Shown one piece after another: positions 1 to 13,136 of a stretch of 13,244 nucleotides of DNA (position 1 is its first letter; each line of letters starts with the position of its first letter). The DNA lies in contig JAGLYE010000020.1 of assembly GCA_023132505.1 (NCBI GenBank), forward strand, positions 1-13,244, in the 5' to 3' direction. The notes below the pieces were generated by a model. That model worked only from the letters and a program-made list of their open reading frames with translations, searched no databases and had not been told where the DNA came from. Position numbers and translations under genes: made by a program. Origin of the DNA: Bacteroidales bacterium. GTDB taxonomy: Bacteria > Bacteroidota > Bacteroidia > Bacteroidales > B18-G4.

Positions 1-497
1 TCGCCGGTGAGGCCCGCCAGGCTGGCAAAATCCTCTTTACCCCATTTTCCCCCATCTGCTTTTACATCAAAGCGCCTTGTAATATAGGCCGGCGTACCGT
101 CCTTAAAGAATATCATGGCATTATCAGCTGTATTGATATTGTATACCTGTCCGGCGATCTGCATACTGAGGTGTTCATTGGCCGGTACATGGTCAACTTT
201 CTTCACATCCCTGGGGATAGGCTTTAATATATAATTACCCTGTTCACTTTCTCTGGTTAGCCGCAACTGATTTTTAATAAGAATAAAACTCAATTTCTCC
301 TGCACACCGGAAATTGAAATGCGCTTGCGGTTTTCCATAAACTGCTCTGCTACCTCTTCGCTATGCTGGGGTGCATCATAGGGGAGTATATGACTGAGCT
401 TTCTGCCCCTGAATACATTTTTCAGGCAGATTGGGCTATAAGTTTTGAAGCCTTTAGCCAGGGTTCCGGGACAAATATATATTTCATTCAGTTTCAT
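1..497 (-). CDS. hipT: HipT-like serine/threonine kinase toxin (HipA C-terminal type), partial
   Basis: Reading the minus strand from ATG at 497 gives 165 complete codons before the left edge cuts the gene; the C-terminal half of the kinase is missing. HipA-family kinases phosphorylate aminoacyl-tRNA synthetases and stall growth (GltX for HipA, TrpS for E. coli HipT). Visible landmarks are the glycine-rich loop SISGVQEK at about residues 61-68, the YILKP segment with the expected ATP-binding lysine at about 92, the TRRFD motif near 140-144 and the DFASLAG motif near 156-162. The N-terminal subdomain of full-length HipA is absent; the gene just upstream supplies it. The start overlaps the stop of that gene by 4 bases (ATGA), so translation is probably coupled. 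S61 and S63 fit the autophosphorylation positions described for HipT loops. The family call is firm. The HipT rather than HipA label rests on the split architecture, and the target is unknown. Confidence 0.9.
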   Translation of the reverse strand, partial: MKLNEIYICPGTLAKGFKTYSPICLKNVFRGRKLSHILPYDAPQHSEEVAEQFMENRKRISISGVQEKLSFILIKNQLRLTRESEQGNYILKPIPRDVKKVDHVPANEHLSMQIAGQVYNINTADNAMIFFKDGTPAYITRRFDVKADGGKWGKEDFASLAGLTG

Positions 498-823
498 GTT
501 GATTCAATTGGCTTAACGGTGATGGGACCGATGGTATCGAATTGTGCCGTGGCCATTAACAGGCCAAAGCTATCTGCCTCATCAATCTTCAGTTGTTTAT
601 TTTGCAGTCGTTTGTTGACACCTTCACTGAGCATGTTATAGAAAAAAGGGAATAGATATTCGCTTTTATACTCCTGTTGCTTTTTCGGCAGGTTTAGGCT
701 GATGGCTGCTTTACCGGCATCATGATAATACGCATCATCATAACGGAACACATAGCTTGTCCTGCCTTCTTCCGTGAGGATTCCGGCTAGTTCTCCATTC
801 CGGTATATTTGCATTGATCTCAT
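494..823 (-). CDS. hipS: HipS-like protein: stand-alone HipA N-terminal subdomain
   Basis: A 109-residue protein matching only the small N-terminal subdomain of HipA. It opens with the typical YRNGELAGIL strand-turn-strand pattern (about residues 7-16) and later has an LPFF-like segment, here YLFPFFYNMLSEG (about 56-68), and the FGLLMATA segment (about 86-93). In full-length HipA this part is fused to the kinase. In the E. coli HipBST system it is a separate protein, HipS, that acts as the antitoxin by binding the kinase HipT; by analogy this is the likely role here. The start ATG at 823 overlaps the hipB stop by 4 bases, and the stop overlaps the hipT start by 4 bases. An in-frame ATG at 814 is an alternative start. 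The antitoxin role is inferred from gene order and family, not shown by the sequence. Confidence 0.85.
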   Translation of the reverse strand: MRSMQIYRNGELAGILTEEGRTSYVFRYDDAYYHDAGKAAISLNLPKKQQEYKSEYLFPFFYNMLSEGVNKRLQNKQLKIDEADSFGLLMATAQFDTIGPITVKPIEST

Positions 824-1035
824 TTATCCGGATTGCTTTTCACTTCCAGTTTCAGCTCCATGCCCAATACCTCAAGAATCTTGTTGAGTACCCCCAGGGA
901 CGGATTAATCTGTCCCCTTTCCAGCTTATACAAAGTATTAGGGCTTACCCCGGCCAACTCTGCCAGGTGCGACTGGGTAATTCCCAGTTCCTTTCTGCGG
1001 CTTTTAATGGTCTGTCCGAGATCGTGTATTAACAT
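820..1035 (-). CDS. hipB: HipB-like XRE-family helix-turn-helix repressor
   Basis: A 71-residue DNA-binding protein that is almost entirely one XRE/Cro-type helix-turn-helix domain. The pattern IKSRRKELGITQSHLAELAG, then VSPNTLYKLERGQINPS (about residues 10-46), is classical for HipB-type antitoxins, and the short C-terminal helix runs to the end. It probably binds as a dimer to palindromic operators and represses its own operon, and it may help neutralise the kinase. I chose the ATG at 1035 because the helix-turn-helix starts shortly after it. The in-frame ATG at 1068 would add 11 residues that look unlike the family. This is the first gene of the three-gene operon, and its TGA overlaps the next ATG. 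One of the three candidate operators covers its start codon. Confidence 0.88.
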   Translation of the reverse strand: MLIHDLGQTIKSRRKELGITQSHLAELAGVSPNTLYKLERGQINPSLGVLNKILEVLGMELKLEVKSNPDK

Positions 1036-1166
1036 TATACTGTGATTTTTGAGTAAAATTAAGCTCATTTTACATAAAATGCAAGAAAAAACACATTATT
1101 ATGTGAATTTAGTACTTTTTTGTATTATTTTGACATAGGAATATATAAAAACCACAGTATATTGTG
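1031..1166. promoter_or_regulatory. Three candidate HipB operators at exact 61-bp spacing
   Basis: Three 14-bp near-palindromes lie upstream of and over the hipB start. Site 1 at 1031-1044 is AACATTATACTGTG, site 2 at 1092-1105 is CACATTATTATGTG, and site 3 at 1153-1166 is CACAGTATATTGTG (plus strand). Each is followed by A, giving TGTGA, and the half-site is CACA(G/T)TA. First bases are 1031, 1092 and 1153, so both intervals are 61 bp, close to six helical turns. HipB proteins bind several palindromic operators in their own promoter, so these are the natural candidates. Site 1 contains the hipB start codon. Binding is inferred; the repeats and spacing are seen directly. Confidence 0.65.
1054..1084 (-). 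promoter_or_regulatory. Candidate hip operon promoter
   Basis: On the minus strand a TTG at 1084-1082 is followed, 20 bases on, by TAATTTTA at 1061-1054, close to the Bacteroidota -33/-7 pattern TTG plus TAnnTTTG with the last base off. The spacer contains a palindrome, CATTTTACATAAAATG (plus strand 1066-1081, 7-bp arms). Initiation would fall near 1048, between operators 1 and 2, leaving a leader of only about 12 bases before the hipB ATG. AT-rich sequence makes chance matches easy, so this is a weak call. Confidence 0.3.
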
Positions 1167-1562: not shown

Positions 1563-4500
1563 ATGAGAAAGCTAAGTACTATGTTGTGCTGCATCTTGTT
1601 TGCGGCAACACAGGTTTTTGGACAAACAACGACCAATAAATCTGCTTTGAATGAATTCTCACAAAGAAAAGCAGCAGAATTCCAGGTCAGGAAGGCTGAG
1701 GCTTTGAACTATGCAAACCAGAATAATCTGCCCTTTATTATAGACAACGATGAGGTTCTGATGGAGATGATGTACATTGATGAATTCGGTCAGCCACAAT
1801 ACTATATTACCAATAATATCAATGCTTCTGCTACCATTTCTACCAACAAAGTAAATTCCGGTGGCGGTTATGGCTACAGCCTTGATGGCTCAGGCATGAC
1901 CGTGCACGAATGGGACGGTGGTGCTGTGCTTACTTCCCACCAGGAATACAGTGGCCGGGTTGTGATGGGCGATGGTGTTACCACCACACATTACCATTCC
2001 ACACACGTGGCAGGTACGATGATCGCTTCAGGTGTGGTTGCCAACGCAAAGGGCATGGCATCTGCTGCCGATCTAAGGGCATTTGATTGGAACAGCGATG
2101 AATCGGAGATGGCAAGCGAAGCTGCCAACAACAATGCTTTGGTCTCCAACCACTCCTACGGATACGGCAGGGGCTGGGTATGGACCGGTACAGCATGGCA
2201 ATGGTACGGAAATACTACCATTAGCATACAGGAAGATTATTTGTTTGGCTTCTATGACAGCCAGGCACAATCCTGGGACCAGATCGCCTATAATGCACCC
2301 TATTATCTGATTTGTAAATCAGCCGGTAACGACAGGGGTGATGGCCCCTCTAACCCTCCATATCCGCTCGACGGACCATACGACTGTGTTTCACATGCCG
2401 GGATTGCCAAAAATGTATTGACGGTTGGTGCTGTAGAAGATATCTCCGGTGGATATACAACGCCTTCCAGCGTGGTCATGAGCTATTTCAGCTCCTGGGG
2501 CCCTGCAGATGACGGACGTATCAAACCGGATGTTGTTGCCAATGGTGTGAGCCTTTATTCAACTGACAATGGCAATAACACGGATTATACCACCCTGAGC
2601 GGAACATCAATGTCGACACCTTCGGCTGCAGGTTCTGCCATCCTTCTGCAGGAGCATTATGAAAACCTGAACGGAACCGGGAATTTTATGCGTGCATCTA
2701 CACTGAAAGCACTCATTATCCATACTGCTGATGAAGCTGGCAGTAATGATGGTCCTGATTACGAGTTCGGCTGGGGACTGATAAATTCTCTTGCTGCCGC
2801 AGATGTGATATCGGACGATGCATCACTGAATACCATTGAAGAAATTACCCTGAATGATGGCGGAAGCTACCAACGTACAGTTACCGCTGACGGCGTACAG
2901 TCATTACAGATCACCATTGTCTGGACAGATGTTCCGGGTACACCGGCAGCTGCTTCACTAGACCCGATAACCCCCATGATCGTGAATGAACTCGATCTCA
3001 GGATCACCCAGGCATCAAATACCTACTATCCATGGAAACTTGACCGTAACAATCCTTCCAATGCTGCTACACGCAATAGTGAAAACAATGCAGACAACGT
3101 GGAAGTTGTTATTATTGACAACCCAACTGCCGGTACGGACTATACCATCGTGGTTGACCATGACGGATCCCTTTCCGGTGGATCACAGGTGTTTTCATTG
3201 ATAGTAACAGGAATAGGCACCGGTACAGCCCTGCCACCTGTTGCAGATTTCTCCGCCGATGATACCAGCCCATTGACGGGATCAACAATTACATTTACCG
3301 ACCTGTCAACCAATGGACCGACAACTTGGTCATGGTCATTCGATCCGGCTACATTCACTTACATGAATGGTACCAATGCCGGCTCACAATATCCTGAAGT
3401 TACTTTTGATGTGGCAGGGAGCTATGATGTGACCCTTATAGCCACAAATGCAGAAGGCTCAGATTCTGAAGTAAAAACTGCTTATATTAATGCTACCGAC
3501 CCACTGCCTTTTTCGCTGCCATGGACAGAAGATTTTGAGGATGTAATTACGACTACATATATTACAAGTACTGCATCAATCAATGGATTACCGGAATGGA
3601 GCTATGATAAGACTGCTAATGGGCGTTTGCGGTTTACTGCCGGAAGCGCGTATTATCACTCCGGCAGCCATGCAGCAACTGTTGATGCAAATCCTTCAGG
3701 GGCTTATTCTGTGAACTACCTGATCAGCACTCTCGACATGTCAGCTTATCAGGCATCTGCCATCCTGGAATTATCATTCTATTTTATGCACCATGGTGAG
3801 GAATCGCATGAAACTGACCGCGTTTGGATCAGGGGAAGTGATAGCGACAGCTGGATCGAGGCATACGACCTGTACTCTAATCGCGGAACTGCCGGCGCCT
3901 GGAACGAAGTGAATAATATTGATATTGATGCCCTGCTGGGCGCGAACGGGCAGGTAGCTTCCACTACTTTCCAGATCCGTTTCGGACAGGAAGATAACTA
4001 TCCTGCTACCAGCACTACGGCCAGCGATGGCTTTACTTTTGATGATATAATTATCCAGGAGGTCGACCCGAGTACTTATATCATTAGCAGCTTTCCATAC
4101 ATGCAAAGCTGGGAATCAGGACTCGGATTATGGAGCCAGGGAACCAATGATGATTTCGACTGGACCAGGAACAGCGGTGGTACACCGTCCAGTTCTACCG
4201 GCCCGACAGGGGCTCATGACGGAACATATTACATGTTTACCGAATCTTCCAGTCCAAGGGTAAATGGTGATGAAGCACACCTGGAAGCCATATTTAACTT
4301 CAGTGCACTTCAAAACCCGGAACTTTCATTTTACTACCATATGTTTGGCATGTCCATTGCGTCCTTGCATATAGATGTTTATGACGGTAGCTGGAATAAT
4401 AGCGTGTGGTCAGCCATCGGGCCCCAGCAAAATGCCCAGACTGATCCATATGAACAGGCCATTATTGACCTCACTGCATGGAGCGGACAAAACAATATCA

Positions 4501-6152
4501 TCATCCGCTTTAGGGGGATCGTGGGAAGTGGTGCCGGATCAACATATTACAGTGATATTGCCATTGACCTCATCGAAGTGGATGGCGGCACGTCACCTGA
4601 ACCTCCGGTAGCCGATTTCACTGCAAACAATACGATAATAGGTACGGGAAACACTGTGCAGTTTAACGACCTTTCTACAAACAATCCGACTGAATGGGCC
4701 TGGACCTTTGAAGGTGGTACACCATCAAGCAGTACTTCACAGAATCCAATGGCGACTTATACTACTGCAGGAACTTATACAGTTACGCTTATTGCCACGA
4801 ACAGCATTGGCTCAGATACCGAAATCAAAACCGGATATATCACGGTAATAAATCCTCCGGTAGCTGAGTTTTCGGCCGAAAACACTGTTATTGATGAAGG
4901 CGGAAGCGTTCAGTTCACTGATCTTTCAACCGGCAATCCTACAAGCTGGTCATGGAGCTTTGAAGGCGGTACACCTGCAAACAGTACTGCTCAGAATCCA
5001 CTTATTGTATACAATATAGCAGGAACTTATTCTGTAACACTGATCGCAACCAATGTTTATGGTTCTGATGCCGAAAACAAGATCGGATATATTACTGTGA
5101 ACTATATTCCTACTCCGCCTGTGGCAGATTTCATTGCCAGTACTACCGAGGTGCTTATAGGCGAACTTGTGAGTTTTACGGATCTGTCGACAAACAATCC
5201 AACTTCATGGTCATGGACCTTTGATGGAGGCACTCCTGCCGGCAGCAGTGTTCAGCATCCGGATGTAAGCTATGATGCGCCTGGAATATTTACGGTTGAA
5301 CTGACGGCGACAAATGCCGATGGATCTGATACCGAAATCAAAGTAGGATATATTAAAGTATTTTCTGCTCCGATACAAACAGAGATCAGCTTTTCTGATT
5401 TTGAAGATGGCTGGGGTATTTGGACTCGCGGGGGTAACGACTGTATCCTCTATACCGAAGGCACCTATGCCTGGTCAGGTAGCAATGCAAGTGACATACA
5501 GGACAACTCAGGAATGAGATCATCATTTTATATGACAAATGGTGTAGATGTCCTTTCTCCGGGCTATATCCAGATAGATATTGAGTTTTACTTCATTGCC
5601 ATCAGCATGGACAATAGCAGCGAGGATTTCTGGGTGCAATATTATGATGGTTCAATATGGCATACAGTAGCTGCATTTGCAAAGGATATTGATTTTGATA
5701 ACAATGTATTTTATGTTGCCACTGTCAGTATCCTTGAATCATCCTATAATTTTCCCGCAGACATGAAAATCAGGTTTATGTGTGATGCCAGCGACAATAA
5801 AGATGATGTTTATATTGATGACATCAAGATCACTGCCTCAACACAGCTTATGCAAAGCAAACGCCTGATATACCTGAGAGAACTTCAGGCACCGCTTGTT
5901 GCATCTGTAGAGATGGAAGAACTTGAATTAAAAATATATCCGAACCCTGTGCAAGATCAGTTGAATATTGAAGTTTTCGGTGCTGAGGATATGCAGGTAT
6001 ATATTTATAATACTACCGGACAGTTGCTGTATTATGGCGAAGAGCTTGACAATAGTGAAAGCATAGATGTCAGTAATTTCGAGAAAGGCTTATATATTGT
6101 GAAAGTGATCAGCGATGGTGAAATACATACCACCAAGCTCATTAAACAATAA
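1563..6152 (+). CDS. Secreted S8 (subtilisin-like) serine protease with PKD and MAM-like modules and T9SS sorting tail
   Basis: A 1529-residue extracellular protease. A signal peptide covers about residues 1-20 (cleavage near VFG-Q). The catalytic domain spans about 100-415, with Asp118 (HEWDGG), His148 (HSTHVAGT), oxyanion Asn256 (SAGND) and Ser349 (GTSMSTP), so the active site looks intact. Residues about 420-550 form a beta-barrel of the kind that follows the catalytic domain in KP-43-type subtilisins (VWTDVPGTP, ELDLRI, YPWKLD, DNVE, FSLIVTG). After it come one PKD domain (about 558-644), two MAM or choice-of-anchor-like beta-sandwich modules (about 645-833 and 838-1008), three consecutive PKD domains (about 1015-1096, 1098-1179 and 1186-1267) and another MAM-like module (about 1272-1425). 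The last 70 or so residues (from IYPNPVQDQ at 1458) are a type A T9SS sorting domain, implying outer-membrane export and tail removal. Substrate is unknown; the PKD and MAM-like modules probably bind polymer or protein surfaces. The gene is monocistronic between its own promoter and terminator. Confidence 0.95.
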   Translation: MRKLSTMLCCILFAATQVFGQTTTNKSALNEFSQRKAAEFQVRKAEALNYANQNNLPFIIDNDEVLMEMMYIDEFGQPQYYITNNINASATISTNKVNSGGGYGYSLDGSGMTVHEWDGGAVLTSHQEYSGRVVMGDGVTTTHYHSTHVAGTMIASGVVANAKGMASAADLRAFDWNSDESEMASEAANNNALVSNHSYGYGRGWVWTGTAWQWYGNTTISIQEDYLFGFYDSQAQSWDQIAYNAPYYLICKSAGNDRGDGPSNPPYPLDGPYDCVSHAGIAKNVLTVGAVEDISGGYTTPSSVVMSYFSSWGPADDGRIKPDVVANGVSLYSTDNGNNTDYTTLSGTSMSTPSAAGSAILLQEHYENLNGTGNFMRASTLKALIIHTADEAGSNDGPDYEFGWGLINSLAAADVISDDASLNTIEEITLNDGGSYQRTVTADGVQSLQITIVWTDVPGTPAAASLDPITPMIVNELDLRITQASNTYYPWKLDRNNPSNAATRNSENNADNVEVVIIDNPTAGTDYTIVVDHDGSLSGGSQVFSLIVTGIGTGTALPPVADFSADDTSPLTGSTITFTDLSTNGPTTWSWSFDPATFTYMNGTNAGSQYPEVTFDVAGSYDVTLIATNAEGSDSEVKTAYINATDPLPFSLPWTEDFEDVITTTYITSTASINGLPEWSYDKTANGRLRFTAGSAYYHSGSHAATVDANPSGAYSVNYLISTLDMSAYQASAILELSFYFMHHGEESHETDRVWIRGSDSDSWIEAYDLYSNRGTAGAWNEVNNIDIDALLGANGQVASTTFQIRFGQEDNYPATSTTASDGFTFDDIIIQEVDPSTYIISSFPYMQSWESGLGLWSQGTNDDFDWTRNSGGTPSSSTGPTGAHDGTYYMFTESSSPRVNGDEAHLEAIFNFSALQNPELSFYYHMFGMSIASLHIDVYDGSWNNSVWSAIGPQQNAQTDPYEQAIIDLTAWSGQNNIIIRFRGIVGSGAGSTYYSDIAIDLIEVDGGTSPEPPVADFTANNTIIGTGNTVQFNDLSTNNPTEWAWTFEGGTPSSSTSQNPMATYTTAGTYTVTLIATNSIGSDTEIKTGYITVINPPVAEFSAENTVIDEGGSVQFTDLSTGNPTSWSWSFEGGTPANSTAQNPLIVYNIAGTYSVTLIATNVYGSDAENKIGYITVNYIPTPPVADFIASTTEVLIGELVSFTDLSTNNPTSWSWTFDGGTPAGSSVQHPDVSYDAPGIFTVELTATNADGSDTEIKVGYIKVFSAPIQTEISFSDFEDGWGIWTRGGNDCILYTEGTYAWSGSNASDIQDNSGMRSSFYMTNGVDVLSPGYIQIDIEFYFIAISMDNSSEDFWVQYYDGSIWHTVAAFAKDIDFDNNVFYVATVSILESSYNFPADMKIRFMCDASDNKDDVYIDDIKITASTQLMQSKRLIYLRELQAPLVASVEMEELELKIYPNPVQDQLNIEVFGAEDMQVYIYNTTGQLLYYGEELDNSESIDVSNFEKGLYIVKVISDGEIHTTKLIKQ

Positions 6153-6170
6153 CTATTTGATAATGCGAAA

Positions 6171-6200
6171 GCCCTCCGCTATTTAGCGGGGGGTTTTTTT
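6171..6200 (+). terminator. Rho-independent terminator of the protease gene
   Basis: CCCTCCGCT (6172-6180) pairs with AGCGGGGGG (6185-6193), a 9-bp stem with one G-T pair around a 4-base loop, followed by seven T residues (6194-6200). It lies 20 bases after the protease stop. The T-run overlaps the stop codon of the convergent GH3 gene (TAA on the minus strand at 6201-6199). Read from the minus strand the hairpin is followed only by a three-T run, so it is a poorer terminator in that direction. Confidence 0.9.
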
Positions 6201-8352
6201 ATGGAATTTTTGCAGATAATTCAATCCTGATATCTTCGGAGGAGGCTCCAACCAGGAAATCATAATTGCCCGGGGTAAGCACATATTCCTGTTTTCTAAT
6301 ATCCCAGCGTTTCATGAAATCAATGGAAATTGGGATGCTCACACTGATCGTTTCACCGGATGGGACAGTTATGCGTTTGAATCCAACCAGGGTCTTTATG
6401 GGATCCCGGGTTCCTGATACCGGATACCGGGTATAGATTTGGACTACTTCATCTCCAGATAACTGACTGGCATTCTTTATCTGCAGGTTCAGCACCAAAT
6501 GCTCTTTACCATCAATGGACTGATCTTCAAATCTTACATCAAGATATTCAAAGGTGCTGTACGACAAGCCATGCCCAAAGGGAAACTGCACCTCTCCTTC
6601 GAAAAAGCGGTATGTTCTTCCTTCCATGCTGTAATTATCGAAAGGAGGGAGGTCATCTGTGCTTTTGTAGAAGGTAAGCGGAAGACGTCCGGAAGGATTT
6701 ACATCGCCGAAAATAATGTCAGCCACAGCATTTCCTCCTTCCTCCCCGGGGTACCAGGCAAAGAGCAGCGCATCGGCTATCTCAGCCACTTCAGGCATGG
6801 CAATGGCGCTCCCTCCGGTAAGCACTACTACAAGCTTTTTATCACCGATCCTTTCTTTTAGCTTTCGGATATATTCTAGCTGGTTGGCCGGCAATTCAAT
6901 GCTGGTCCGGTCCCCGCCTTTGAGGTTCAGCATGGCATCGCCTTCTTCACCTTCAAGCAGCCTGTTTATGCCAACTACGGCAATTACGACATCCGCAAAA
7001 CCTGTATGCCAGAAGCCATAAAAAATGCTGTCGTTATTCAGCAACACGCCTTTAGTATGATCCACTGCAATAGCCGGGCCGGCATGACCAACGATACCCT
7101 CAAGTATGGTCACCATCTCCCCTGAATAGCCATTATAATTCCCTGCCAATGCAGAAAGATCCGCAGCCATGGGGCCTGTAACAAAGATGCCGTTGATGCT
7201 ATCCCTGTTCAATGGGAGGACACCATTGTTTTTGAGGAGAACGACGGATTTGACCGCAGCCTGCCTGGATAGTTCGCGGTGCCTGCTGCAATTCACAACG
7301 TCAGGCGGGATGGCTGCATAGGGATTGAGACTGTCAGGATCGAATAATCCAAGTTTAAAACGGGTTTTGAGCAGGGGTCTGAGTATTTGGTCAACATCTT
7401 CCTCATTGATCATGCCCAACAAAACCGCATCAGGAAGATATTTGTAAATGTAACCGCAATTCAGGTTCACGCCTGCCTTTGCAGCCATAGCCGCGGCCTG
7501 TGGACGTGTTTCAACCACTTTGTGACGTGCCCAGATGTCGTCGAGGGCCCAGCAATCAGAAACGATATGTCCGTCAAATCCATATTCATTTCGCAAGATA
7601 TCCTGCAACAGGAATGGGCTCCCGCAACAGGGTTCATCATAGGTCCGGTTATAGGCACACATCACAGCCTCAACATCAGCTTCCACAAGTTCCCTGAAAG
7701 CAGGGAGATAAGTCTCCCGGAAATCGATCTCGTCAGGGATGGCATTAAAGTGGTGACGCAAAGCTTCCGGACCACTATGGACCACATAATGCTTGGCACA
7801 GGCTGCCACTTTCAGGTAATTGGGGTCATCACCCTGAAGTCCTTTGACAAAAGCCTGACCTATCATAGTGGTCAGATAGGGGTCTTCGCCATAGGTTTCC
7901 TGTCCCCGGCCCCAGCGCGGGTCACGAAAAATATTGATGTTTGGAGACCAGAATGAAAGTCCCATGTTCTGTGCCCTATGCCCTTTTCTGACAGCAGCAT
8001 GGTGCTTGGCCCGGGCTTCATCGGAAATAGCTTCTGCTACCTGATTAATCAACTCAGGATCAAAAGTTGCCGCCAGACCGATGGCCTGTGGGAATACTGT
8101 AGCCTCACCGGCCCTGCCTACACCATGCAGGCATTCGCTCCACCAATTATACTCCGGTATGCCAAGCCTTTCTATGGCTGGGCTGTTGTAAAGCATCAGG
8201 GACGCTTTTTCTTCCAGACTGAGCTTTAAGATAAGGTCTTCTACCCTTAATTCCACTGCTACGGATGGATCCTGGTAGGGATAAGTATAGTTTTGAGAAT
8301 GGGATACGGTAAACAAAACCAGGAAACAGAAAAAAGCAAGAAATTGTTTCAT
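6199..8352 (-). CDS. Glycoside hydrolase family 3, beta-xylosidase-like
   Basis: An exported family 3 glycoside hydrolase of 717 residues, numbered from ATG at 8352; a TTG two codons earlier is a less likely start. A signal peptide spans about residues 1-19 with no lipobox, so the product is probably periplasmic. The TIM-barrel domain carries NWWSECLHGVGR (69-80), RWGRGQETYGEDP (146-158), KH (187-188) and VSDCWAL with the predicted nucleophile Asp266. The second alpha/beta domain carries LLEGEEGD (465-472), followed by KGGDRTSIELP, where the acid/base glutamate is expected (Glu467, 469 or 470). A fibronectin III-like domain ends the protein (about 590-710). The NWWSE, CCGSP and GGDRT motifs are those of GH3 xylosidase/arabinosidase-type enzymes, which remove single sugars from the non-reducing ends of oligosaccharides. 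It starts 11 bases after the upstream lipoprotein gene, so the two are almost certainly one operon. The exact sugar cannot be fixed from sequence. Confidence 0.92.
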   Translation of the reverse strand: MKQFLAFFCFLVLFTVSHSQNYTYPYQDPSVAVELRVEDLILKLSLEEKASLMLYNSPAIERLGIPEYNWWSECLHGVGRAGEATVFPQAIGLAATFDPELINQVAEAISDEARAKHHAAVRKGHRAQNMGLSFWSPNINIFRDPRWGRGQETYGEDPYLTTMIGQAFVKGLQGDDPNYLKVAACAKHYVVHSGPEALRHHFNAIPDEIDFRETYLPAFRELVEADVEAVMCAYNRTYDEPCCGSPFLLQDILRNEYGFDGHIVSDCWALDDIWARHKVVETRPQAAAMAAKAGVNLNCGYIYKYLPDAVLLGMINEEDVDQILRPLLKTRFKLGLFDPDSLNPYAAIPPDVVNCSRHRELSRQAAVKSVVLLKNNGVLPLNRDSINGIFVTGPMAADLSALAGNYNGYSGEMVTILEGIVGHAGPAIAVDHTKGVLLNNDSIFYGFWHTGFADVVIAVVGINRLLEGEEGDAMLNLKGGDRTSIELPANQLEYIRKLKERIGDKKLVVVLTGGSAIAMPEVAEIADALLFAWYPGEEGGNAVADIIFGDVNPSGRLPLTFYKSTDDLPPFDNYSMEGRTYRFFEGEVQFPFGHGLSYSTFEYLDVRFEDQSIDGKEHLVLNLQIKNASQLSGDEVVQIYTRYPVSGTRDPIKTLVGFKRITVPSGETISVSIPISIDFMKRWDIRKQEYVLTPGNYDFLVGASSEDIRIELSAKIP

Positions 8353-8363
8353 AAACAAGATTA

Positions 8364-10796
8364 TTATTGGTTATTTATTATTTCTGTTCCCCCCTTCAGT
8401 CTAAGCTCAAGCATCATCATCCCTTCATTCCCTATAAACTTGCACGAAATCTCTATATTATGGTCACCCGCAGGCACTTTTAATATGTTATTACCGAGGC
8501 TGATAGATTTGAGTAACTGCCATTCTGCGGAATAAACACTGGCAAAGGCACCATCATATTTAAGGTGTTCCCCTTCATTTAGCTTCACAGGGATGGTGAT
8601 CATCCTGTTGCCGCCAATTTCCAATTGGGGATTGATAATTATACCTTCTTTGGCAGTGATGATGAACTGTATAATTTGCTCACTTCCGGGATTATTAAAA
8701 TCCAGTGATGTTGTAAGTGGTTCACCGGGCTGTCTATGCTTGTTTTTGTGTTTTAAGCGAAAGGTATAAATCCTGCTGAGGTGTAACATTCCGTCGCCAT
8801 CCTCTTCCAGGTGAAATTCATTATTCACATCCTCCATTATAGCTTTCTGCTCCGCAGTAAACATCCCCTTCATACGGGCTTCTTCCCATAATGATATTGC
8901 AGCAAGGATATCATTAGTTAAGCCATTCTTTTCCAGGGCTTCATATGATGTCACGAAAGCATACCCTGCATTAAAAGCTGCTGAACGGGCAAGGAGCCAT
9001 TCAATATCTTCAATGCTGGTTTCGGGTTTCATCAAAAACCATCCAAGCATATTCGGGATATAATTACGGTCGAAATATTTCTGATTTTTCAGGCGGTATT
9101 CGGTCTGGCTTTCCCTGAAGCCGGCATACCAGGGTTCTCCCCAGTTCATGCGGGTAAAAATATGCCAAAAGTAGTGGGATGAGCGGCTCGCATCGGCAAT
9201 ATAATGTGACCTGATATTATCATCCAGCTTGTTGAACCATGTGGAGGTAAACAGGATCTCACCATAATTGCCCAGGCCGGTTGAGCGGCATCCCTCCAGC
9301 CCGTCGAAAGAGATCTGCCTTACACCGGTTTCATTGTAAAGATTTGCAATGTTCTCCGCTATTTCAGATGTTAATTCCGGGTTGGATAAGAAAACCTTAT
9401 AGACATGGTCGGCCAGTTTGAATATGGTGTCTTCTTCATGATGAGCAGATGCCCGGGTCTTAAAAGCGCCGCGCTGACAGTCAAGCAGGACCCATGGGGC
9501 CGTTTCACTCACAGCAGCATAACGGATTATCTCCTCACCAATGCGCACGGCCTTCAGATAATTGTTGCGGAACTGATTGAATCTGGAAGGATCTTCTATT
9601 ATGATCTCCTTATCGGCGGGGCCAATGGGGTTTTCGATAAAGGAATAACCTACTTCAGCCAGTCGTGGGTCAGGTATGGGTGTTACATAGGCATCATTGG
9701 TGGTAATGAAATTGGAAAGTGTATGCAGGCCAAGCGAGATACCTTTGGCGTCGGCTTGTTCTACGCAGTTTTTGAGGCTTTTTCTTCCCTCCGGGAAAAA
9801 TGCCTTTTTCAATTCGAAATGTCCCCAGGTTTCAAAAGGGCCAGAATGATACAGGTATTTGAGTCCGGCCTGCTCTGTATATGCCAGTGCCTTCTCAAAA
9901 TCTTTTTCCCCAAAACCCATGATCATATATGCCGATGATGCTTCCGGTGCTGTTTTGCTCCATTGCCCGTGTAATTCAGGGTGGGGCAGGCCTTCATTAA
10001 TTTCAATTTCTGCAATGCCCATGAGCACCTTGTCGGGTGGGCAGCCAAAAATGGCAATAGAAGATCCGATCAGCCCATTGTCATCATAAGCCCTGATAAT
10101 GTAATTGTCATAACCCCAGTTAGTCACAGAACGGTCTTCGTAGCGGTTGCGGCAATAGGCATGCAGTGCACTGCCTCCCTCAACAGGGCGGGCAGCTTCA
10201 ATGCGGTATAATGTGTTGGCAATACCACCTTTTTTAAGATCAGAATAATCCTGCTGGTCGAAATAATCTATCTCGGGCATCACATCATTTTCCAGCCAGG
10301 GAAAACCCCCCAGGGTTTTGGGGTTGAGGGACTGAATGCCAATGGCAAATTCACTGTTTCTGACAACCCCAACCGTTTCCCCAATGGTTTCGACAATATT
10401 TGTATATATCGGCCCCCAGATGATCAGGTCAGGTTTTGTTTCTGAGTAAATGTTATTCAATTCAAAGGAAAGGTATTTCTTATGTTGGATTACCTTAACC
10501 TTAACTTCTATATCTTCGGGGAAATAGAAATATAGCATATTCTCTTCATGGCGGTAATCCATTGACTGTGGCCGGAGAACCTTCCCGCCGAAACGCATTT
10601 GAATGAGGTATGTAGCTGAGTCGGCAAGCAGGTAATCACCTCCCTTATCAAGGTCGTACAGCTGGGTGATCATAGCGGTTTTATCCATGTTGATACCAAG
10701 ATCGCCGGCAATGAATTCATAGTCGTCATCGAAAATGGTACAAGCGTTCAGAAACAATAAAAAGAAAAATAAGGAGGGAAATAATGATTTTTTCAT
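8364..10796 (-). CDS. Surface-type lipoprotein, probable TIM-barrel glycosidase of unrecognised family
   Basis: An 810-residue lipoprotein. The signal sequence ends in a lipobox LNAC with Cys19, followed by TIFDDD; acidic residues just after the cysteine are typical of Bacteroidota lipoproteins sent to the cell surface. Residues about 25-290 look beta-rich, like a sugar-binding sandwich. About 290-640 alternate strands and helices like a TIM barrel, with GLKYLYHSGPFETWG (311-325), GISLGLHTLSNF (352-363), LLDCQRGAFKTRASAHH (437-453) and ISFDGLEGCRSTG (495-507). About 670-800 are beta-rich again. Asp498 in SFDGLEG sits where strand-end catalytic acids lie in clan D-like alpha-glycosidases, so it is my first guess for the active site, along with Glu501 and Asp439. 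I cannot name a CAZy family. As first gene of an operon with a GH3 enzyme, it probably makes the first cut on a shared polysaccharide. It could instead be a non-catalytic binding protein. Confidence 0.75.
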   Translation of the reverse strand: MKKSLFPSLFFFLLFLNACTIFDDDYEFIAGDLGINMDKTAMITQLYDLDKGGDYLLADSATYLIQMRFGGKVLRPQSMDYRHEENMLYFYFPEDIEVKVKVIQHKKYLSFELNNIYSETKPDLIIWGPIYTNIVETIGETVGVVRNSEFAIGIQSLNPKTLGGFPWLENDVMPEIDYFDQQDYSDLKKGGIANTLYRIEAARPVEGGSALHAYCRNRYEDRSVTNWGYDNYIIRAYDDNGLIGSSIAIFGCPPDKVLMGIAEIEINEGLPHPELHGQWSKTAPEASSAYMIMGFGEKDFEKALAYTEQAGLKYLYHSGPFETWGHFELKKAFFPEGRKSLKNCVEQADAKGISLGLHTLSNFITTNDAYVTPIPDPRLAEVGYSFIENPIGPADKEIIIEDPSRFNQFRNNYLKAVRIGEEIIRYAAVSETAPWVLLDCQRGAFKTRASAHHEEDTIFKLADHVYKVFLSNPELTSEIAENIANLYNETGVRQISFDGLEGCRSTGLGNYGEILFTSTWFNKLDDNIRSHYIADASRSSHYFWHIFTRMNWGEPWYAGFRESQTEYRLKNQKYFDRNYIPNMLGWFLMKPETSIEDIEWLLARSAAFNAGYAFVTSYEALEKNGLTNDILAAISLWEEARMKGMFTAEQKAIMEDVNNEFHLEEDGDGMLHLSRIYTFRLKHKNKHRQPGEPLTTSLDFNNPGSEQIIQFIITAKEGIIINPQLEIGGNRMITIPVKLNEGEHLKYDGAFASVYSAEWQLLKSISLGNNILKVPAGDHNIEISCKFIGNEGMMMLELRLKGGTEIINNQ

Positions 10797-10840
10797 ATTG
10801 AATGGTTTTGAAAGGTAAATGTAAGAATTACATGTAAATT

Positions 10841-10848
10841 CAAAAATA
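10841..10848 (-). promoter_or_regulatory. Candidate -7 element for the lipoprotein-GH3 operon
   Basis: On the minus strand this reads TATTTTTG, an exact match to TAnnTTTG, 45 bases before the ATG at 10796. Initiation would fall near 10835, leaving a leader of about 40 bases. No convincing TTTG lies about 20 bases further upstream. The position is right for the operon's promoter, but the matched word is short. Confidence 0.45.
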
Positions 10849-10977
10849 ATGGGAAAGAACGGCAGGGTTAAGACCCATGTTATGGATAGAAATATGATCA
10901 GAAAGTTTCCCTATGACTTCGGACAAGAGTTTTTTTACCGGGAATCGGTAAAGTGTATGCCGGGTTATGAGGATTAA

Positions 10978-12498
10978 TTATTCTTTTATTCTTGTACTGA
11001 TAATTGATGCGATCTCTTCAATTATTATCCTATCCTGTTTCATGCTGTCGCGTTCGCGGATTGTAACAGTATTGTCTTCCAGGGTTTGGTGATCAACCGT
11101 AATGCAATATGGGGTTCCAATGGCATCCTGACGGCGGTACCGGCGGCCAATGGCATCCTTTTCATCATACTGACACATGAAATCTGTTTTCAGGCTGTCA
11201 AATATCTCACGGGCCTTATTTGGCATCCCGTCTTTTTTTACAAGAGGCAGAACGGCTACTTTGATCGGTGCAAGAACAGGAAGAAGTTTCATAACAATAC
11301 GTTCAGAGCCATCATCAAGCTTTTCTTCTGTAAAAGCATTGCTGAGTATGGCCAGGAAAGTCCTGTCAAGGCCAAGGGATGTTTCCACTACATAAGGTAC
11401 GTAGCTTTGATCCAGCTCAGGGTCAAAGTATTGTAGTTTTTTCCCGGAGTATTCCTGGTGTGCGTTCAAATCGAAATCTGTACGGGAATGTATCCCTTCC
11501 AGTTCTTTAAATCCAATTGGGAAATCAAACTCTATATCCGTAGCGGCATTGGCATAATGTGCTAACTTATCGTGGTCATGAAAACGATATTTCTCTGCCG
11601 GGATTCCCATGGAGAGATGCCATTTCATGCGTTCTTCCTTCCAGTATTCAAACCATTTGAGCTCTTCTCCCGGGCGTACAAAAAACTGCATTTCCATTTG
11701 CTCGAATTCACGCATGCGGAAGATAAATTGACGTGCTACGATCTCATTTCTGAAAGCCTTGCCGATCTGAGCAATTCCGAAAGGTACCTTCATCCTGCCT
11801 GATTTCATTACGTTCAGGAAGTTCACGAATATACCTTGAGCCGTTTCAGGACGGAGATATATTTCGCTTGCTCCTTCTGAAAGAGAGCCCATCTGAGTGG
11901 CAAACATAAGGTTGAACTGGCGTACATCTGTCCAATCCCGGGAGCCCGAAACCGGGCAGGCAATTTCCAGATCCTCGATCAAGGTTTTTATCCCGGCCAG
12001 GTCGTTGTTATCCATGGCGGTATAAAGGCGCTTTTTGATATCTTCGATTTTTTCCTTATAACCTGCAACCCTCGGGTTGGTTGTGATGAACTGCTGTTCA
12101 TCGAAGCTCTCGCCAAAACGTTTGGCTGCTTTGGTCACCTCTTTGGCGATCTTTCCCTCGATCTTGCTTATTTGGTCCTCGACAAGCATATCAGCGCGGT
12201 AACGCTTCTTAGAACCTTTGTTGTCGATCATAGGATCATTAAAAGCATCCACATGACCTGAAGCTTTCCAGACTGTCGGATGCATAAAAATGGCTGTATC
12301 CACACCAAGGATGTTTTCATGATGCTGCACCATGGCCTTCCACCAATATGCCTTGATATTGTTTTTCAACTCCACACCATATTGACCGTAATCATAAACG
12401 GCACTCAATCCGTCATAGATCTCACTCGATGGAAAAACAAACCCATACTCTTTAGCATGGGAAATCACTTTTTTGAAAATATCTTCGTTGTTTGCCAT
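10978..12498 (-). CDS. glyS: Glycyl-tRNA synthetase (single-chain, class II)
   Basis: GlyRS charges tRNA-Gly with glycine in the cytoplasm. At 506 residues this is the homodimeric type shared with eukaryotes and archaea, not the alpha2beta2 type of E. coli. The start ATG at 12498 begins MANNEDIFKKVISHAKEYGF, the usual N-terminus. An upstream GTG at 12564 would add 22 atypical residues. Seen in order: GFVFPSSEIYDG (19-30), an insertion domain about 80-180, LRPETAQGIFVNF (215-227), class II motif 2 with FRNEI (249-253) and REFEQME (263-269), motif 3 with GLDRTF (376-381), and the C-terminal anticodon-binding domain (about 410-500, with IGRRYRRQDAIGTPYCITVD). All landmarks are intact. It lies 74 bases downstream of pth and may be co-transcribed with it. 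No terminator with a T-run is visible after its stop. Confidence 0.97.
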   Translation of the reverse strand: MANNEDIFKKVISHAKEYGFVFPSSEIYDGLSAVYDYGQYGVELKNNIKAYWWKAMVQHHENILGVDTAIFMHPTVWKASGHVDAFNDPMIDNKGSKKRYRADMLVEDQISKIEGKIAKEVTKAAKRFGESFDEQQFITTNPRVAGYKEKIEDIKKRLYTAMDNNDLAGIKTLIEDLEIACPVSGSRDWTDVRQFNLMFATQMGSLSEGASEIYLRPETAQGIFVNFLNVMKSGRMKVPFGIAQIGKAFRNEIVARQFIFRMREFEQMEMQFFVRPGEELKWFEYWKEERMKWHLSMGIPAEKYRFHDHDKLAHYANAATDIEFDFPIGFKELEGIHSRTDFDLNAHQEYSGKKLQYFDPELDQSYVPYVVETSLGLDRTFLAILSNAFTEEKLDDGSERIVMKLLPVLAPIKVAVLPLVKKDGMPNKAREIFDSLKTDFMCQYDEKDAIGRRYRRQDAIGTPYCITVDHQTLEDNTVTIRERDSMKQDRIIIEEIASIISTRIKE

Positions 12499-12557
12499 GC
12501 TGTAAAAATAATAATTTATGTGTTGGGTGTCCTGCCAAAGCTTTGCTCTGCATACTG

Positions 12558-12571
12558 TCAGCACTCAGCAC
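12558..12571. repeat. Tandem 7-bp repeat in the pth-glyS gap
   Basis: Two perfect adjacent copies of TCAGCAC (12558-12564 and 12565-12571) lie just after the pth stop codon. This is another short phrase-like intergenic repeat, of different sequence from those at 1244-1302. A perfect 10-bp palindrome CAAAGCTTTG sits nearby at 12536-12545. No function is apparent. Confidence 0.5.
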
Positions 12572-12572
12572 C

Positions 12573-13136
12573 CTACTTGTTATTAAAGTCTGTCATTGTC
12601 ATATCAATTCCCCGTACAACAAAACTCTTTACCATCTCTATTGCGGTTTTCATTTTTGGGATCATGATCTTTTCCTCTTCGGTGGTCCATTTGCTAAGAA
12701 CATAATCAGATTGGTATCCCTTCGAAAATTCATTTCCAATACCAATCCTCAGACGGGGAAAGGCTTCCGTTCCGAGGGTCATAATGATGTTTTCGAGACC
12801 GTTATGACCACCGTCACCACCTTTTTTGCGCATGCGCAGACTGCCTGCCGCAAGGGCAATATCATCAGTGATAATCAGGATTCGTTCAGCAGGGATGTTT
12901 TCTTTTTCCATCCAGTATCTGACTGCCTTCCCGCTTAGGTTCATAAAGGTAGCGGGCTTGATAACCACAAGGATCTTGCCCCTGTACCTTATTTTGGTAA
13001 CAGAAGCATAGCGTTCAGACTTAAACTCGGCCTCTGCTTCCTGTGCCAGGGCATCCGCAGCAATAAAACCGATATTATGCCTGGTATTGGCATATTCATC
13101 TCCGATGTTTCCCAGTCCTGTGATCAGGTACTTCAT
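12573..13136 (-). CDS. pth: Peptidyl-tRNA hydrolase
   Basis: Pth frees tRNA from peptidyl-tRNA that has dropped off the ribosome. The protein has 187 residues, a normal length for the bacterial enzyme. The start MKYLITGLGNIGDEYANTRH is canonical. The catalytic His20 lies in NTRHNIGF, at the same number as in E. coli. The other active-site residues are also visible: Asn10, Asn66 (FMNLSG), Asp91 or Asp92 (ITDDIAL) and Asn112 in GGHNGL. The C-terminal helix that closes the active site follows. The gene is upstream of glyS on the same strand, pairing two translation genes. Upstream, 13137-13244 carries only the inverted repeat described separately, so a clear promoter cannot be placed. Confidence 0.97.
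   Translation of the reverse strand: MKYLITGLGNIGDEYANTRHNIGFIAADALAQEAEAEFKSERYASVTKIRYRGKILVVIKPATFMNLSGKAVRYWMEKENIPAERILIITDDIALAAGSLRMRKKGGDGGHNGLENIIMTLGTEAFPRLRIGIGNEFSKGYQSDYVLSKWTTEEEKIMIPKMKTAIEMVKSFVVRGIDMTMTDFNNK

Follow-up and report, generated by a model that had tools for sequence, protein, structure and literature searches.

Evenly spaced putative HipB operators before a Bacteroidota hipBST operon: a constant step with changing letters

Three palindromic sites, putatively operators of HipB, precede a Bacteroidota hipBST operon at exact 61-bp steps, and within the clade to which this operon belongs the step is constant while the letters of the operators turn over. The model that we regard as probable proposes that HipB represses its own operon through this promoter-flanking array, in which contacts from one HipB(ST) complex to the next would set the step. 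The stretch of DNA analysed, called the window here, is a whole contig (C113) of 13,244 nucleotides, belonging to a genome of 1.90 Mb that is 76% complete.

The hipBST locus

The first gene of the operon, hipB (820–1035, minus strand), encodes a Cro/C1-type helix-turn-helix (HTH) protein of 71 aa that starts at the ATG at 1035 and matches the profiles PF01381 (3.3e-16) and TIGR03070 (3.9e-20; 71.6 bits, just below its cut-off of 71.65). A longer hipB reading frame from 1068 was rejected, as relatives align from the ATG at 1035. The second gene, hipS (494–823, minus strand), encodes a stand-alone Couple_hipA domain of 109 aa (PF13657, 7.7e-19; TIGR03071, 9.8e-25), which among the sequences of solved structures matches HipS(Lp) at 2.8e-10, plus three others. 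The third, hipT (1–497, minus strand), is truncated by the contig end and carries a HipA_C kinase domain, recognised at 1.2e-12 across the 165 aa present, with the remainder lying beyond the contig; in seven relatives of the window's clade the HipA_C frames measure 325–336 aa. With an HTH-type hipB as the first gene of the operon and a separate gene, hipS, for N-subdomain 1 of HipA, hipB-hipS-hipT is identified from its sequence as a HipBST toxin–antitoxin operon. As read from its open reading frames, the remainder of the window (1563–13136) would encode a 1529-aa subtilisin-like protein with PKD-like repeats and a C-terminal sorting-like domain, a GH3-like enzyme, a lipoprotein-like protein, and glycyl-tRNA synthetase-like and peptidyl-tRNA hydrolase-like proteins.

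The operator triplet in the window

The repeat search returned a single family, comprising three 18-nt copies at 1032, 1093 and 1154 with steps of 61 and 61 bp. When positions 1000–1200 were tested without a motif, the triple-similarity score was 28 at an offset of 61 bp, a value reached by none of 1,000 dinucleotide shuffles (maximum 26), which confirms the three near-palindromes at exact 61-bp steps described in the first-pass annotation. Set on their dyads, the three putative operators all lie on the minus strand. O1 (1029–1046), a palindrome of 18 bp, has its centre 2 bp ahead of the A in the hipB ATG, and its right half-site includes this ATG and codon 2; these coordinates, compared with the ATG at 1035, bear out the earlier statement that the first site covers the hipB start codon. 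O2 (1090–1107) lies 61 bp upstream of O1 and adjoins the putative −33 element, and O3 (1151–1168) lies 61 bp upstream of O2. The stretch between O3 and the next gene (1200–1320) is strongly C/T-rich, with CTCC runs and a repeated CCCCTGAAC.

The 61-bp interval had been described as close to six turns of the helix, which would place all sites on nearly the same face and might allow a repressor to link distant dimers or to wrap the promoter. At 10.5 bp per turn it corresponds to 5.8 turns, so that on straight, relaxed DNA the sites would be rotated successively by about 70 degrees; the common face therefore holds as an approximation, off by about −2 bp per step.

Conservation of the step

HipS is present in 51 of 149 related genomes, and an alignment of 13 HipS proteins (A1) served as the query for a wider search. 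The genome collection gave the best 80 of 412 confirmed named loci, two more loci came from viral contigs, and 30 were taken from an order-level search with matches in 128 of 393 genomes. A HipB match stands immediately before hipS in all 136 loci examined. Removal of identical promoter regions left 122 loci, and exclusion of regions shorter than 200 bp or with more than 30% shared 12-mers left 115, which comprise 107 of the window's clade (HipS 46–100% identical to that of the window) and 8 of a sister clade (36–41%), a division that was made after the promoters had been inspected. By record most loci come from Bacteroidota and a few from MAGs of Ignavibacteria, Neomarinimicrobiota, Delongbacteria and Blastocatellia, as assigned by the recorded binning; the nearest named relative among the matches listed is a Bacteroidales MAG (L048).

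Over whole promoter regions and without any motif, the best repeat offset is 60–62 or 121–123 bp in 100 of the 107 clade loci; mononucleotide shuffles give these offsets in 24 of 535 cases, from which about 5 of 107 would be expected. When all 115 loci are anchored at the start codon, also motif-free, 60–62 bp is the best offset in 71.2 and 121–123 bp in 26.5 (ties shared), and mononucleotide shuffles give about 1 per offset. The operators were also located with two consensus classes, class 1 (ATCACANTATANTGTGAT) and class 2 (AGTGCAATATATTGCACT); as these consensuses and their thresholds were picked by eye after inspection of the promoters, it is the motif-free counts that carry the weight. 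O2 and O3 were sought only at 58–64 and 117–127 bp from O1, and the unrestricted site list contains few third sites outside these ranges. O1 and O2 occur together in 69 of 75 class-1 and 26 of 31 class-2 loci (one and two of these loci, respectively, coming from the sister clade), with a step of 60, 61 or 62 bp in 9, 62 and 24 of the 95. The O2–O3 step is 59, 60, 61 or 62 bp in 1, 7, 53 and 4 of 65 loci, and O3 is absent or below the threshold in 22 of 69 class-1 and 9 of 27 class-2 loci that have O1. Loci with a first step of 62 bp usually keep 61 bp in the second, which suggests that each step is held separately.

Seven of the 107 clade loci lack the step as their top motif-free offset, and the consensus scan finds O1 and O2 at 61–62 bp in six of them. 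The exception, L027, alone among the 107 lacks a second operator; its single TGCAATATATTGCA site lies 89 bp before hipB. The alignment of orthologous upstream regions had been set beforehand as the test by which the array could be refuted; sites and steps were kept, and this conservation makes the original observation stronger than a single sequence could tell.

Operator letters and the HipB recognition helix

The same step is found with letters of neither class. Steps of 60–62 bp occur with CGAA..TTCG (L104), CCAGAA..CTCTGG (L107), AGTATC..GATAC (L127 and L148) and GTACCA.. (L039). At least 14 changes of operator class are required by the HipS tree and 9 by the HipB tree, the latter having been built without residues 1–3 and 28–42 (recognition helix); changes between classes 1 and 2 alone number 9 and 4, respectively, against about 25 for shuffled labels. 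On a HipS tree that includes the sister clade (135 loci) the class changes 17 times and the step once, the step labels being set by the analyst as 61 for the 106 clade loci with a visible 60–62-bp step, none for L027, and 40 for all 28 sister-clade loci, including L160 and L167, which have a pair at 50 bp. The HipS tree relies on about 105 columns, so that some of the class changes counted may be tree error.

It could be proposed that the array is a recent, functionless tandem duplication of a 61-bp unit, as its steps are exactly equal and, in the window, 24 of 30 letters around O1 and O3 are identical. Such an origin would not account for several unrelated sets of operator letters with one and the same step across the clade, and the identity of the spacers between units is 0.325 against 0.317 after shuffling (65 loci). 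As no trace of a duplication is left above the shuffled level, this explanation was rejected and its probability is considered negligible.

The HipB residues that separate class 1 from class 2 most strongly (22, 32, 33, 36, 37, 40 and 42) lie within or close to the recognition helix of the HTH. At position 33, class-1 loci have Asn in 100% and class-2 loci Arg in 96% of cases, and at position 36 the former have Tyr in 94% and the latter Lys in 93%. Residue 2, which is encoded by the operator itself, also separates the classes, and residues 15 and 49 do so from outside the recognition helix, so that part of the covariation may be due to shared descent. The covariation of the letters with the recognition helix is most simply explained if they are read by HipB.

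The TGTGA/TCACA half-sites are reminiscent of CRP sites, and the sequences might accordingly belong to another regulator, for instance of the CRP/FNR type. Their order in the window, TCACA..TGTGA, is the reverse of that in CRP sites, and the letters change with the recognition helix of HipB, following HipB more tightly than HipS. Moreover, a scan of the window's genome with CACAKTATWWTGTG, allowing at most one mismatch, found six places, namely O1–O3 and three single sites, with no second cluster of operator-like sites in these 1.90 Mb (76% complete). A foreign regulator is thus very improbable. From the covariation, together with published work on Legionella, we infer that HipB binds these sequences; O1–O3 are very probably HipB operators, in agreement with the proposal of the first-pass annotation that they serve the hipBST operon.

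Promoter and start codon

A candidate promoter had been placed between the first two sites. The interval contains a putative −33 element, TTG (1082–1084, minus strand), and a putative −7 element, TAATTTT (1055–1061, minus strand), which fits TAnnTTTG; transcription would then start some 15 nt upstream of the hipB ATG. These boxes agree with the Bacteroidota promoter consensus of TAnnTTTG at −7 and TTTG near −33 (PMC7366714). The placement gains support from the relatives, as 70 of 95 O1–O2 intervals contain TTG and TAnnTTT spaced as in a promoter, against 3.8 expected from shuffles, and TAnnTTT lies 25 or 24 bp before the centre of O1 in 78 of 95. No conserved promoter was found in the O2–O3 intervals, of which 3 of 65 contain both boxes at such spacing, against 1.7 expected.

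This distribution bears on whether the promoter alone could fix the step, with O1 and O2 flanking the −33/−7 core and O3 being an independent extra or an old duplicate. A conserved promoter does occupy the O1–O2 interval, and O3 is missing, at the threshold used, from 31 of the 96 loci with O1. On the other hand, O2 and O3 are 61 bp apart in 53 of 65 loci though no promoter is conserved there, so that this second step is left unexplained by a promoter, and the spacers retain no residual similarity. The promoter-only explanation is therefore unlikely, although it deserves more credit than the other alternatives. As the step is kept between O2 and O3 without a promoter, and is also kept through the change of letters, it would most likely be set by contacts between complexes.

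The position of O1 also affects the coding sequence. In 64 class-1 and 20 class-2 loci, its centre lies 2 bp upstream of the A with which the start codon begins. At the position that corresponds to codon 2, class-1 operators read TGA in 60 of 69 O2 and 39 of 47 O3 sites, against none of 64 O1 sites (TTA in 47, TCA in 7, TTG in 5 and others in 5); a perfect class-1 half-site appears to be avoided in O1 because TGA would stop hipB at its second codon. Codon 2 of class-2 loci is CAC (His) in 19 of 20, identical to the half-site, and residue 2 of HipB thus appears to be imposed by the operator.

Comparison with other hip operons

Evenly spaced triple HipB operators are already known from the HipBST system of Legionella, with three 18-nt sites separated by 53-bp gaps (PMC10653801), and homologues of this system occur across the FCB superphylum (PMC10653801). 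If these gaps are counted edge to edge, the Legionella step would be 71 bp from centre to centre. The window shares with Legionella the tripartite operon and three evenly spaced sites, here predicted ones, upstream of hipB. Binding by EMSA belongs to Legionella, where HipB binds 50-bp fragments with each of the three operators, HipT produces a secondary shift, and the symmetry of O1 is dispensable for binding (PMC10653801). The likeness concerns the number and spacing of the sites. The Legionella half-sites are six nucleotides long and its O2 and O3 are asymmetric, and in Legionella 24 nt separate O1 from the start codon downstream (PMC10653801), whereas O1 of the window lies over the start codon.

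The hipBA promoter region of E. coli K-12 also holds several HipB operators, in this case four, which start at −134, −106, −67 and −39, with unequal steps of 28, 39 and 28 bp. Its letters, TATCCN8GGATA, are unrelated and its HipA is unsplit, and the array of the window, which differs in both letters and steps, falls outside this family.

The sister Bacteroidota HipBST clade (L040–L047, L154–L173) likewise has palindromic arrays of fixed step before hipB, but with a step of 40–41 bp (80–82 in two loci) instead of 61 bp, and with the letters TATACCC..GGGTATA or TATATN..GCATATA. The best offset is 40, 41 or 80 bp in 25 of its 26 non-redundant loci, and 50 bp in one. In a survey of fused and split loci, 30 of 47 non-redundant fused hipBA loci of the phylum have no operator pair at a strict threshold. 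The best steps of the other 17 are 27 (two loci), 40 (three), 41 (four), 43, 50, 54 (two), 61, 81 and 89 bp (two), 40–41 bp being the commonest (7 of 17). Of the 19 split loci in the survey 15 gave a pair, one of which was excluded as an artefact of masked bases, and the 14 usable ones have steps of 40–41 or 81–82 bp; mononucleotide shuffles gave pairs in 0 of 660. Among 22 long-frame HipA_C loci of a previous set, seven had an HTH frame by the analyst's filter, and a 41-bp pair is among the top five offsets in five of these seven and the top one in four.

Two loci combine the steps of both clades. Upstream of a fused hipA, L257 has steps of 41, 61 and 41 bp in one array with similar letters. 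L145 carries a class-2 array of 61 bp and, further upstream within 250 bp, a TATACCC-type pair at 41 bp like that of the sister clade, which possibly marks a second hip promoter next door.

A model for the array

The proposed mechanism is that HipB dimers, probably as HipB–HipS–HipT complexes, bind the three palindromic operators. With O2 beside the −33 element and O1 over the early transcribed region and the hipB start codon, bound HipB would exclude RNA polymerase, and occupation of both would close the promoter between them; O3 would act as a third site at the same step. The equal steps suggest that neighbouring complexes touch along bent DNA. A step of 61 bp spans about 200 Å on straight DNA, and the E. 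coli HipBST complex measures 135 Å in the crystal (PMC10627512), so that contact requires the DNA to bend. E. coli HipA–HipB bends its operator by 70 degrees, and operator binding by E. coli HipB has been reported to be cooperative (PMC3376134). In E. coli O127, HipB is required and sufficient to repress its own hipBST promoter, and the presence of HipT or HipST lowers the amount of HipB that this takes (PMC10627512). The open-licence literature searched yielded no binding or expression data on a Bacteroidota HipBST. The structure of the E. coli HipBA promoter complex reportedly features bridging between toxins (HipA).

A wider reading, held tentatively and with somewhat less than even confidence as a whole, assigns the letters to HipB and the step to the kinase complex, with steps that change by about whole turns between clades and an O1 placed in codons 1–2. 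HipB(ST/A) complexes on bent DNA would have to contact their neighbours and so form a defined, promoter-silencing nucleoprotein array, and O1 would be built into the first two hipB codons, where a perfect class-1 half-site would be forbidden as a TGA stop. The steps of 28, 39–41, 50, 61 and about 71 bp fall short of whole turns of 10.5 bp by 1 to 3.5 bp. Those of 27 (−4.5 bp from three turns), 43, 55 (the second pair of L258) and 89 bp fit poorly and count against this reading, and the whole-turn relation is suggestive only.

The first-pass annotation had regarded such regular spacing as unfamiliar for Bacteroidota hip operons. This stands in so far as the open-licence literature searched, with the hip papers covered in part (PMC10653801, PMC8262856, PMC6581861, PMC10627512 and PMC3376134), describes no Bacteroidota array, 61-bp or 40-bp steps, turnover of letters or embedding in the start codon; regular spacing as such had been published for Legionella (PMC10653801). 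Relative to that system, the deep conservation, the turnover of letters, the clade-specific steps and the start-codon embedding were not seen in the literature searched.

The interaction of HipB complexes on separate operators and a possible storage of toxin on DNA bear on the control of persistence. A fixed step with changing letters separates sequence recognition, the part of HipB, from geometry, the part of neighbour contact, and the array makes such contact directly testable through changes in spacing. The step is also a simple marker for sorting hip clades and for locating promoters in unannotated genomes.
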